A DNA stretch of 64,000 bases from Cognatishimia maritima (GTDB taxonomy: Bacteria; Pseudomonadota; Alphaproteobacteria; Rhodobacterales; Rhodobacteraceae): positions 1 to 64,000 of the forward strand of contig NZ_FQWM01000001.1 of the NCBI RefSeq assembly GCF_900129685.1, given 5' to 3'. The notes under the pieces are model-generated. The model was given only the letters and a program-made list of their open reading frames with translations. It had not been told where the DNA came from and did not search any database. This document shows positions 40,120 through 43,563 of the stretch, one piece after another. Each line of letters opens with the position of its first letter. Position 1 is the stretch's first letter. Both the position numbers and the translations under genes were made by a program.

Positions 40120-42210
40120 GTGAGCAGCCGCCCGGAAATCCTATTTCCGCTCTTTGCGGAGATCACCAAGTTGGAGGGTGTCGGCCCCAAAGTGGCGCAG
40201 CACCTTTCAACCATTGGGTTAGATAAGCCGCGTGACGTTTTGTTTTCATTGCCGTATTCAGTTGTGGATCGGCGTCGACGAGACACCATACAAGGCGCGG
40301 ATTTGCCGGGCATTGTGACCGTCTCTGTCACTATTGGTGCCCATAAAGCGCCGCGAAATCGCAGCGGCGCATATCGCGTGACGGTCAACGATGCCGCGAC
40401 AAGTTTCCAATTGGTTTTCTTTCATGCACGCGGTGACTATTTGCAAAAGCAGCTTCCGGTTGGTGAGGAACGTCTGGTGTCGGGTCGGGTCGAATTGTTC
40501 GACGGGATTGCCCAGATGGTGCACCCCGACCACATGCTGCCCGAGGACGAAGCCGGCTCCATTCCTGATTTTGAGCCGGTTTATCACCTGACCTCGGGCG
40601 TAACGCTAAAGACCATGACCAAAGCGGCGGCTTCTGCTTTGCGTTTGGCCCCCAACTTGGCCGAATGGATTGATCCTCGCCAAAAGGCACTGGCGCAATG
40701 GCCTGATTGGAAAGACGCCATTGAAACGGCGCATCGCCCGGAAGGTTTAAAAGACACCGCGCCCACAGTCCCGGCCAGAGAGCGGCTGGCCTACGATGAA
40801 TTCTTTGCCCATCAACTGACGCTGGCATTGGCCCGCAGTCAGTTAAAACGTGCGCCGGGGCGGGTGAGCCAGGCGACGGGCAAGCTGCAGGCCAAAGTGC
40901 TTGCCGCCTTGCCATACCGCCCGACCGGCGCGCAACAGCGGGCGATTTCTGAAATTGCCGACGACATGGCGACGCCGCATCGGATGAACCGCTTGCTGCA
41001 AGGGGATGTTGGCGCGGGCAAAACCCTCGTGGCCTTCATGGCGATGCTGAACGCGGTCGAAGCGGGCGGGCAGGGTGTGATGATGGCCCCTACAGAGATT
41101 CTGGCGCGTCAGCACCTGCAAGGCCTGCGTCCCTTGGCGGAACAGGCTGGCGTAGTTGTTGAAATCCTGACCGGGCGCGACAAGGGCAAAGAGCGGCGCG
41201 CAAAGCTGGATGCGTTGCAGGCGGGGAACATTCATATCTTGGTGGGCACCCATGCGGTGTTCCAAAAAGACGTAGCGTTTCACGACTTGCGGCTGGCCAT
41301 CGTGGATGAGCAGCATCGATTTGGCGTGCGGCAACGGTTGGAGCTTGGCAAAAAAGGTGCGCAGGCGGATGTGCTGGTGATGACGGCGACTCCGATCCCA
41401 CGATCGTTGGCGCTGGCGCAATATGGCGACATGGATGTCTCGGTTCTGGATGAAAAGCCACCGGGGCGGCAGCCGATCACAACCGTCATGGTCTCTGATG
41501 CGCGCACGGATGAAGTGGTGGATCGCCTGCGGCGCGCTGTGGCCGAAGGTAAACAGGCCTATTGGGTCTGTCCGCTGGTCGAAGAAAGCGAAGTGATGGA
41601 CCTGACCGCCGCCGAGGATCGGTTCAAAATGCTGCGCGCGGCATTGGGCGAGGGGATCTGCGGGCTTGTGCACGGCCAGATGCCACCGCCCGAAAAAGAC
41701 GCTGCCATGGCCGATTTCGCCGCGGGCAAAACCAAGGTTTTGGTGGCCACAACCGTGATCGAAGTTGGGGTTGATGTGCCCAATGCAACGATCATGGTGA
41801 TCGAACGCGCCGAAAGCTTTGGCCTTGCGCAGTTGCACCAATTGCGGGGCCGCGTGGGGCGGGGCGATCAGGCCTCGACCTGTTTGTTGCTGTATCAAGC
41901 GCCGCTGTCTGAAAACGGGCTAAAGCGGCTAAAGGTCATGCGCGACACCAATGATGGCTTCAAGATTTCCGAAACCGATCTAGAAATGCGCGGAGCGGGC
42001 GATTTGATCGGAACCGCACAGTCGGGTTTGCCGCGATTCCGTATCGCTGACATCGAATCGCAGGCGGCGCTGATGGCGATTGCCCAAAGTGACGCGCGAA
42101 AACTGCTGAATGATGATCCGACGCTGAAAACGGACCGCGGCAAGGCCGCGCGTGTTCTTTTGTGGCTGATGGAGCAGGATCAGGCCATCCGTTTGATTTC
42201 AGTGGGTTAG
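40120..42210 (+). CDS. recG: ATP-dependent DNA helicase RecG
   Basis: Branch-migrates stalled forks and Holliday junctions. 696 residues from a GTG start. The N-terminal wedge domain contains PRDVLFSLPYSVVDRR. Helicase motifs are present: QGDVGAGKTLVAF (I), IVDEQHRFGVRQR (II), VMTATPIPRSLALAQYGDMD (III), and the C-terminal TTVIEVGVDVPNA and HQLRGRVGRG. It is probably co-transcribed with ligA. An SOS-box-driven gene follows. Confidence 0.96.
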   Translation: MSSRPEILFPLFAEITKLEGVGPKVAQHLSTIGLDKPRDVLFSLPYSVVDRRRRDTIQGADLPGIVTVSVTIGAHKAPRNRSGAYRVTVNDAATSFQLVFFHARGDYLQKQLPVGEERLVSGRVELFDGIAQMVHPDHMLPEDEAGSIPDFEPVYHLTSGVTLKTMTKAAASALRLAPNLAEWIDPRQKALAQWPDWKDAIETAHRPEGLKDTAPTVPARERLAYDEFFAHQLTLALARSQLKRAPGRVSQATGKLQAKVLAALPYRPTGAQQRAISEIADDMATPHRMNRLLQGDVGAGKTLVAFMAMLNAVEAGGQGVMMAPTEILARQHLQGLRPLAEQAGVVVEILTGRDKGKERRAKLDALQAGNIHILVGTHAVFQKDVAFHDLRLAIVDEQHRFGVRQRLELGKKGAQADVLVMTATPIPRSLALAQYGDMDVSVLDEKPPGRQPITTVMVSDARTDEVVDRLRRAVAEGKQAYWVCPLVEESEVMDLTAAEDRFKMLRAALGEGICGLVHGQMPPPEKDAAMADFAAGKTKVLVATTVIEVGVDVPNATIMVIERAESFGLAQLHQLRGRVGRGDQASTCLLLYQAPLSENGLKRLKVMRDTNDGFKISETDLEMRGAGDLIGTAQSGLPRFRIADIESQAALMAIAQSDARKLLNDDPTLKTDRGKAARVLLWLMEQDQAIRLISVG

Positions 42211-42238
42211 ACGCGATCTGACTATGAATTCGCTAAAT

Positions 42239-42263
42239 GTTCTCAAATGTTCTCATAAAGTTC
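42239..42263 (+). promoter_or_regulatory. LexA SOS box (GTTC-N7-GTTC)
   Basis: GTTC at 42249-42252 and at 42260-42263 are separated by exactly 7 nt (TCATAAA), the alphaproteobacterial LexA operator. A third GTTC lies at 42239-42242 (spacing 6). Downstream, GAAC at 42287 with 7 nt to CAAC, and GAAC at 42305, give weaker inverse matches. The box lies 65 nt before the start of the 40-residue gene. Confidence 0.75.
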
Positions 42264-42327
42264 TTGCATTCGGCTGCGGAAAATGAGAACAAAGAGGCAA
42301 CAAAGAACTGAGCGCAGGAGCAACACC

Positions 42328-42450
42328 ATGATGTCCCAGATCAAAACAGCGATCCGCAATTCGCAATCTACCCTTGTGCAGGATGCCATTGGCGCAGCTG
42401 CTTTGGTGGTGATGATGATTGTTGCCCTGCATATCCCCGGACTTGCCTAA
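42328..42450 (+). CDS. 40-residue SOS-regulated single-pass membrane protein
   Basis: Begins ATG-ATG at 42328 after a good ribosome site (AGGAGCAACACC) and ends TAA at 42448-42450. The N-terminal half is amphipathic and polar (SQIKTAIRNSQSTLVQDA); the C-terminal half is one hydrophobic helix (IGAAALVVMMIVALHIPG). A consensus SOS box precedes it. Caulobacter SidA, a 29-residue inner-membrane division inhibitor, has the same layout of LexA control and a single helix. I see no sequence match that proves homology, so the division-inhibitor role is a hypothesis. Confidence 0.7.
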   Translation: MMSQIKTAIRNSQSTLVQDAIGAAALVVMMIVALHIPGLA

Positions 42451-42630
42451 AGGAATTTGATGAACCTCTGACTGCCTGGCGTTCCGGCAAGGGCTGATCC
42501 CGACGCACCTGTCCCCAATTTGTGCGTGTTTACTGATACTGCCTGTCCCTTAGTCCTCAGTAATGTCTCTTTATGGGTCTGCCTCACAACATCCCATTTG
42601 GACCATCCCTTGCAAAGAGAACGCAACCTT

Positions 42631-42667
42631 CGCCGCCTTCCTCCCCGGGAAGTGCGGCGATTTTTTT
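42631..42667 (+). terminator. Intrinsic terminator after the SOS-regulated small gene
   Basis: CGCCGC-C-TTCC pairs with GGAA-GT-GCGGCG (42631-42659) and is followed by ATTTTTTTA. It ends the transcript about 180 nt past the 40-residue gene, leaving a long 3' untranslated region in which I see no further gene. Confidence 0.75.
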
Positions 42668-42685
42668 ATTGGGCGAAAGGGATTG

Positions 42686-43138
42686 TCAGGCGCATGCAGA
42701 TTGCTCGGCTTGATCGAAGGCTTCGAGTGTGGCTTCAAGCGCCAGTAGGATGGAGGCGTGGCGATTGCGATAGTCCTGCGCGGGGCGCAAAACCTCAAGC
42801 CCGTCAAACGGGGCGGGTGGTGTTGGGCCGCCGTCTTTTAGCATGGCCTTTAGGGCGTCGCGCCCGGCTTCAACCTGCGCTTTTGTGCAGCCAATGATGT
42901 TCTTGCCGACAACCGACGCCGCTGCTTGCCCCAAGGCGCAGGCTTTCACGTCTTGGCCATAGGCGGTGATTTTGCCGTCCTTGATCTCTACATCCACGGT
43001 GATGGTCGATCCGCAAAGCGGTGCGCGCTTTTTCACGGTGGCATCCGGGTCAGGCAACCGATCCGTATGCGGCATGTCCGATGCCAGGGCCAGAATCTGC
43101 CCCGAATAGAGTTTGATCAGGTCGGTTTCACCGGACAT
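42686..43138 (-). CDS. SufU/NifU-type iron-sulfur cluster assembly scaffold
   Basis: 150 residues from the ATG at 43138; the frame to 43219 overlaps hisI and is not used. The U-type fold is seen in LIKLYSGQILALASDMPHTD, RAPLCGSTITVDVEI, VKACALGQAAASVVGKNI and GCTKAQVEAGRDA. Two of the usual three ligand Cys are in place (PLCGS, KACALG), and a third Cys lies in IIGCTKA. It is divergent from hisI. Whether it acts as a scaffold or as a sulfur-transfer zinc protein cannot be told. Confidence 0.85.
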   Translation of the reverse strand: MSGETDLIKLYSGQILALASDMPHTDRLPDPDATVKKRAPLCGSTITVDVEIKDGKITAYGQDVKACALGQAAASVVGKNIIGCTKAQVEAGRDALKAMLKDGGPTPPAPFDGLEVLRPAQDYRNRHASILLALEATLEAFDQAEQSACA

Positions 43139-43203
43139 GGTTATTTCCTTTTGTCTGCGTTTCCTAGATAGAGGGCCAGACCAGAGATGCAAAGGGTTTC
43201 GAC

Positions 43204-43563
43204 ATGACATTTGATCCAAAGGCGCTGACCTTCAACGATGCGGGCCTTATTCCGGTGATCGCGCAAGACGCAGAGTCGCTTGAGGTCTTGATGATGGCAT
43301 GGATGAATGCGGAAGCTATTGAAAAGACGCTGGAAAGTGGAAAGGTGACCTATTGGTCGCGCTCACGGCAAGCGTTCTGGATCAAGGGCGAAACCAGCGG
43401 GCACACGCAGGAATTGGTCGATTTGCGCTACGACTGTGATCAGGATTGTATCTTGGTTTTGGTGCGGCAAACCGGCGCTGCGTGCCACACAATGCGCAGA
43501 ACGTGCTTTTATCGCGCTGTGCGCGATGGCGAAAGCATCGAACTGATGAAGCCAATGGTGTAA
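43204..43563 (+). CDS. hisI: Phosphoribosyl-AMP cyclohydrolase
   Basis: Third step of histidine synthesis. 119 residues, a stand-alone HisI without the HisE domain. Motifs: [40 protein letters not shown], the metal-binding DCDQDC region, and [13 protein letters not shown], shown as [12 protein letters not shown]. Confidence 0.96.

Follow-up and report, generated by a model that had tools for sequence, protein, structure and literature searches.

The window analysed here, 64,000 nucleotides of the Cognatishimia maritima genome, carries directly downstream of recG a compact locus that encodes a 40-residue membrane microprotein, preceded by LexA-type operators and followed by a structured RNA and an intrinsic terminator (Table 1). 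A first-pass annotation had read from the sequence a GTTC-N7-GTTC operator with a third GTTC, a micro-ORF with a ribosome site, a terminator of its own and the proximity of recG, and all of these parts are present; two further elements, the inverted second box and the structured RNA, had escaped it. The third GTTC is separated by 6 bases rather than 7 from the next GTTC. On the same strand, recG lies directly upstream in 96 of the 97 loci that we read (tblastn synteny).

Table 1. Features of the locus, with positions numbered from the first base of the window.
Feature	Position	Strand	Remarks
recG	40120..42210	+	Pfam DEAD, Helicase_C, RecG_wedge, RecG_dom3_C; synteny by tblastn
Third GTTC half-site	42239..42242	+	10 bp upstream of box 1; 6 bases before next GTTC
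LexA box 1, GTTC-N7-GTTC, GTTCTCATAAAGTTC	42249..42263	+	Present in 95/97 loci
-35-like hexamer TTGCAT	42264..42269	+	Family consensus TTTACA; 17 nt before -10 region; conservation read per position; putative -35
LexA-like box 2, inverted, GAAC-N7-CAAC on + strand	42287..42301	-	Covers supposed -10 and predicted transcription start (~42299)
Shine-Dalgarno AGGAG	42316..42320	+	Read in sequence; SD-like motif in 90/97 homologues
40-aa single-helix membrane microprotein MMSQIKTAIRNSQSTLVQDAIGAAALVVMMIVALHIPGLA	42328..42450	+	ATG 42328 to TAA 42450; conserved frame
Structured RNA in 3′ UTR	~42472..42624	+	Long closing helix, inner hairpins, C-rich CUGYC loops; fold and covariation
Intrinsic terminator	42630..42667	+	Hairpin 42630-42660, then seven T 42661-42667

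From the promoter-to-terminator layout we infer that the microprotein ORF and the structured RNA share one transcript, predicted to run from about 42299 to 42667 (roughly 370 nt), of which the structured RNA makes up about 40%; the approximately 175 bases between the 40-codon frame and the terminator hold only unsupported reading frames. The terminator hairpin is seen in the fold, yet it is absent from the list of a pattern scanner, and its region (42626-42667) has a mean identity of 89% within the genus. A longer frame of 55 residues from an ATG at 42283 was rejected because it begins within the operator region and because the start codon of the homologues corresponds to 42328. Beyond the terminator, a convergent frame on the minus strand (42686-43219) looks by eye like an Fe-S cluster scaffold protein (NifU/IscU-like) and has no Pfam match at 1e-5; a single minus-strand promoter-like site was found at 42689-42660, where 0.4 would be expected by chance.

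Conservation of the microprotein and of one helix face

The 40-codon frame is under purifying selection. It is kept in all nine genomes of the genus at 74-100% identity, with a median dN/dS of 0.14 (from the 30 of 36 pairs whose dS is less than 3) and with 18, 9 and 33 of 40 columns variable at codon positions 1, 2 and 3, respectively. Beyond the genus, a profile built from the nine members (A1) matched 278 of 394 Rhodobacteraceae genomes, which represent 393 genera, and a wider profile built from 64 diverse members (A2) matched 340, leaving 54 without a protein match. The gene is usually present in one copy, with two profile matches in each of two genomes (G349 and G390). A class-wide draw of 385 genomes gave five matches with A2, all in Rhodobacteraceae, and the 20 listed of its 380 non-matching genomes all come from other families; an order-level draw returned Rhodobacteraceae only, with 139 of 149 genomes matched.

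We also searched 12 genomes with no protein match to A2 (ten, from the order-level draw) or a weak one (G784 and G317) for the exact promoter pattern described below, allowing zero mismatches. It was found in four, each time before a frame of 31-41 residues that keeps D-x-x-G and a terminal LPA or LPG; of the other eight, G784 has its weak protein match alone and seven have neither promoter nor protein. Thus, the gene is somewhat more widespread than the profile count. Two of these loci, L224 and L225, both from one genus (g24), carry 31-residue versions downstream of the shared promoter, which lack most of the N-terminal part but keep D-x-x-G and LWLPAIL and are close in length to the 29 residues of the Caulobacter division inhibitor SidA.

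For detailed reading we took 97 loci (nine from the genus and 88 from different genera), which were drawn from the better-scoring hits and are not a random sample. All 97 start with ATG and 90 have a Shine-Dalgarno-like motif. An origin as a mobile element or phage gene was set aside, as the consensus had no tblastn match at E 0.1 in plasmid and phage collections. No Pfam model matches the microprotein, and the best NCBIfam model, CspC_non_triad, reaches 10.3 bits against a cut-off of 675.

The protein consensus, MxTQIKxxxxRSxxTLLQDAIGAASLVVMLLVALHLPGL, is that of a protein with one hydrophobic helix. A 17-residue segment with a mean hydropathy of at least 1.6 occurs in all 97 homologues, which, together with the 340 of 394 genomes matched, bears out the first reading of a single-helix membrane microprotein and shows it to be conserved. 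AlphaFold returned one helix over residues 2-35 (mean pLDDT 84.5, pTM 0.43), which was expected and adds little. Net charge averages +1.4 over the first 15 residues and is about zero after residue 20; the N-terminus is therefore probably cytoplasmic.

Taking one locus per genus (89 loci), the D-x-x-G anchor (D19 and G22) is invariant, as is L34, and T15, L26, L30 and P37 are kept in 86, 84, 83 and 88 loci. Over residues 18-37, conservation recurs with a period of 100 degrees (P 0.018 by shuffling), although the signal is modest, with a moment of 6.77 at 100 degrees against 6.07 at 120 degrees. The conserved face consists of D19, G22, A23, L26, L30, A/G33 and P37, and such periodic conservation along a helix points to a specific helix partner.

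LexA-type operators around the predicted core promoter

GTTC-N7-GTTC is the alphaproteobacterial LexA box, the operator by which members of this SOS regulon are recognised, and it is what box 1 contains. By itself the motif is not enriched, with one site in the window against 2.2 expected by chance and 86 sites in the genome, where the reversed control pattern has 140; we nevertheless rejected chance as the explanation for the operator because it is conserved upstream of the frame across loci. Counted once per genus, box 1 precedes the frame in 87 of 89 loci, compared to 24 of 4,450 shuffles, and boxes 1 and 2 occur together at their exact spacing in 82 of 89, compared to none of 4,450. The third half-site is exact in 83 of the 94 loci having box 1. 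Likewise, 78 of 80 named records (Ruegeria, Phaeobacter, Leisingera, Tritonibacter and others) have box 1, and 78 have box 2; the third half-site occurs in 71. With the frame retained in 340 of 394 genomes and the GTTC-N7-GTTC spacing in 87 of 89 genera, the conservation in relatives on which the first-pass annotation had made its proposal depend was observed for both.

Box 2 (GAAC-N7-CAAC) differs at one base from an inverted LexA-type box. In the form GAAC-N7-NAAC it stands at a fixed spacing in 89 of 95 loci, and two loci (L042 and L045) carry an exact GAAC-N7-GAAC. Aligned on box 1, the family promoter reads GTTCnCAAAT-GTTCTCAwAAA-GTTC-TTTACA, 17 bases ending in TGA, GAACAAA, a few bases and CAACAAA. 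The -35 and -10 elements would lie between and on the LexA-type boxes, with transcription predicted to start near 42299; a core promoter flanked in this way by two such boxes is unusual. The -10 region, TGAGAACAAA, resembles a sigma-70 element poorly, and a promoter scanner reported no sigma-70 promoter on the plus strand at the locus.

In this genome the same motif occurs at LexA targets. We read 20 regions around mostly A+T-rich sites among the 86 genomic motifs, and in seven of them the site directly precedes a lexA-, recA-, uvrA-, uvrD-, imuB-type polymerase-, mmcB- or radical-SAM-like gene; Pfam confirms these identities except that of uvrA, which was named by eye, and the remaining 13 regions have no assignment to SOS genes. 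The recA promoter carries the identical TGAGAACAA half-site. Since the motif precedes lexA, recA, uvrA, uvrD and imuB- and mmcB-like genes, LexA control of the microprotein gene, proposed at the outset, is well supported by an operator that is both conserved at the locus and common to the known SOS genes of the genome; LexA would be expected to bind here, and the gene to be induced by DNA damage. GTTC-N7-GTTC is also given as the LexA box of Caulobacter in the available part of one report (PMC12700426).

Other sites met in this survey include the radical-SAM gene (Pfam), which lies directly behind a LexA-type box, GTTCTCTTTTTGTTC, at L046, and two more A+T-rich GTTC-N7-GTTC sites near unidentified genes (L051, G000:C3:961142, and L063, G000:C14:4104) that are possible extra SOS targets. 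One of the latter two lies near a transposase-like frame and the other between an aldo/keto-reductase-like frame and a 232-residue frame without a Pfam match (names by eye).

A structured RNA in the 3′ untranslated region

The stretch from 42472 to 42667 folds with a z-score of -4.02, which none of 200 shuffles equalled, compared to -1.33 for the full 369-nt predicted transcript (11 of 100 shuffles at least as good). Among the loci listed, the 3′ region of the window from CTGCC (42472) to the terminator resembles most of the others. Typically, the region begins with CTGCCTGCG, ends with a stretch complementary to its own start and contains hairpins with C-rich loops. We obtained it for 95 of the 97 loci and included 82 of these in the structure statistics; the other 13 were left out, being short or missed by the start or terminator pattern. 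From the named records, the core was obtained in 68 of 80.

Over the 82 loci the mean fold z-score is -2.57, with 59 below -2. At least 15 pairs can form between the first and last 45 bases in 63 of 82 regions, compared to 599 of 3,280 shuffles and 22 of 82 recG coding controls; lowering the threshold to at least six pairs narrows the contrast (78 of 82, 1,743 of 3,280 and 44 of 82, respectively). The arms around the first loop motif form at least six pairs in 38 of 78 loci when taken from the same locus and in 249 of 1,263 swapped combinations.

In plain alignments, compensatory changes were seen in 10 of 22, 9 of 19 and 6 of 12 predicted pairs. A plain alignment of 89 RNA sequences recovered the terminator stem alone, and smaller seeds and covariance models were needed. 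The first model (R1, 26 sequences) matched 58 of 90 sources outside its rows at E ≤0.01, some of which may share a species with a model row and none of which is the window. Indeed, R1 gave no match to the window at E 1 or below, and its matches in the genome were at chance level and missed the true site. In a 70-row alignment fitted to R1, which therefore leans towards that model and includes one weak second match in L104, 92.9% of the cells pair, and we counted 122 doubly changed cells against 28.3 (s.d. 5.3) after shuffling, with none of 500 shuffles as high; sliding the pairing partner gave at most 25.

A second model, R2, matches the window at 42472-42611 with an E value of 8.7e-5. It matched 12 of 30 sources at E ≤0.01, among which L011 and L017 are alignment rows and the window is not. 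In a class draw of 142 genomes R2 found two, the window's own genome and one of its family, and within the former it found the true site only and no other copy of the RNA. The match stops at 42611, before the closing helix that the single-sequence fold places at 42619-42624, which leaves some uncertainty about the precise 3′ boundary in the window. Against Rfam 15, the segment from 42000 to 43000 produced only sR1 at 11.8 bits, below the gathering score of 45.

Proposed role and competing readings

Membrane microproteins of the SOS response are already known as a kind; here, one is joined to an RNA without a known family. That the locus provides a LexA-controlled membrane microprotein together with a functional RNA is, in our judgement, very likely.

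The closest parallel is SidA of Caulobacter crescentus, an alphaproteobacterial, LexA-controlled, tiny inner-membrane protein under a GTTC-N7-GTTC-type operator (available parts of PMC4211646 and PMC12700426), with 29 residues, which inhibits division by interacting with FtsW (PMC4211646, in part). The small single-helix membrane protein under LexA-type operators that characterizes SidA-type inhibitors is also what we find here, and a SidA-like role of the microprotein is plausible. The two differ in length, at 29 residues against 40; the FtsW interaction established for SidA is putative here, by analogy; and a structured RNA accompanies the present locus, whereas the available part of the SidA source mentions none. 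YneA, the SOS division inhibitor of Bacillus subtilis, is likewise SOS-controlled with a single transmembrane helix, and this helix docks on a partner helix, transmembrane helix 7 of FtsW; the authors suggest that FtsW inhibition is common in SOS division blocks (PMC13396833, in part). However, YneA requires an extracellular LysM domain, whereas only a few residues follow the helix here. Because SidA and YneA both act on FtsW, the divisome is our leading guess for the target, at about even chances or marginally better.

We propose that in an undamaged cell LexA would sit on the two convergent boxes, one just upstream of the -35 and the other over the -10 and +1, and would keep the promoter tightly off; such a two-sided lock would suit a product that is harmful if expressed without damage. 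After DNA damage, activated RecA would lead to LexA cleavage and to production of the predicted transcript, whose 5′ part would be translated into the 40-residue inner-membrane protein, with its short positive N-terminus probably in the cytoplasm and a single helix. The helix face formed by D19, G22, L26, L30, A/G33 and P37 would contact a membrane partner, most likely the septal peptidoglycan machinery (FtsW/FtsI/FtsN), so that, in the manner of SidA and YneA, division would be paused while repair proceeds. More broadly, the microprotein most likely restrains division or some other membrane process through this face. The 3′ part would form a multi-hairpin RNA with exposed CUGYC loops, which may control the translation or stability of its own mRNA or regulate other mRNAs. 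Taken as a whole, this chain, in which the gene may pause growth or division during DNA repair, is a reading that we favour slightly.

The same parts could instead form a membrane-active peptide of the TisB/DinQ type, which is SOS-induced, lowers the membrane potential and slows metabolism, its translation being limited by RNA structure or by an antisense RNA. These Escherichia coli systems share with the locus LexA control, a tiny hydrophobic inner-membrane peptide and possibly control at the RNA level, and DinQ is a LexA-controlled toxic peptide with a single helix (PMC3567139, in part); the double LexA-type operator and the structured 3′ UTR agree with this, as does a Shine-Dalgarno region that tends to be base-paired when transcripts are folded (mean unpaired probability 0.29 over 40 loci). 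Yet a leader pairs with its own 3′ RNA no better than with one swapped in (P 0.73 over 84 loci). Sequestration of the Shine-Dalgarno region by the 3′ RNA is not supported by this comparison, which would miss pairing conserved in sequence. Moreover, a single conserved face, with D19 and G22 in all 89 genera, suggests a specific partner over generic pores, and TisB and DinQ belong to type I toxin-antitoxin loci with antisense RNAs, whereas this is a widespread chromosomal gene of one family, beside recG and usually in single copy, unlike a mobile toxin-antitoxin module. We regard a toxin of this type as unlikely.

We judge it similarly improbable that the microprotein is an SOS modulator of a membrane protein outside division, such as a sensor kinase, a transporter or secretion or competence machinery. 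The conserved face would require merely some membrane partner, and LexA has been tied to CckA/CtrA and gene transfer agents in Rhodobacter capsulatus and Dinoroseobacter shibae (available parts of PMC6473078 and PMC9638019), but the neighbours, recG upstream and the frame named by eye as Fe-S scaffold-like downstream, offer no candidate partner.

That the RNA is the main product, an SOS-induced regulator whose CUGYC loops pair with target mRNAs while the protein is secondary, would fit the strong covariation, the exposure of CUGYC motifs relative to other five-base stretches (mean unpaired probability 0.63 against 0.38, 40 loci) and their number (about 3.6 per 3′ region and present in 91 of 95, a raw count without a chance expectation), but it seems quite improbable given the clear purifying selection on the protein, whose conservation within the genus equals or exceeds that of the RNA (identity to the window 0.79 against 0.69).

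Returning to the division-stop microprotein with its accompanying RNA, a bolder version would have one LexA-controlled transcript yield, throughout the family, both a division-arresting microprotein and an independent riboregulator whose CUGYC loops pair with target mRNAs. We hold this version tentatively and think it somewhat doubtful; if true, it would be a dual-function RNA through which DNA damage triggers protein-level and RNA-level checkpoints together, with a protein family and an RNA family that are both new and both absent from the family databases searched.

No description of the gene was met in the open-access literature searched on LexA and the SOS response, small proteins and sRNAs in Rhodobacteraceae and Caulobacter, and by term count recG is absent from the main text of the D. 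shibae LexA prediction paper. Nor does the open-access literature searched describe the means by which DNA damage halts division in roseobacters and related bacteria, a halt for which the gene, with matches in 340 of the 394 family genomes sampled, is a concrete candidate. Neither Pfam nor NCBIfam has a model for the protein that the locus contributes, and Rfam has no match for its RNA; operator, protein and RNA are defined such that each can be mutated separately. Within the same bacterial family, a further likeness is to Pos19 of Rhodobacter sphaeroides, a stress-induced small RNA that also encodes a short peptide.
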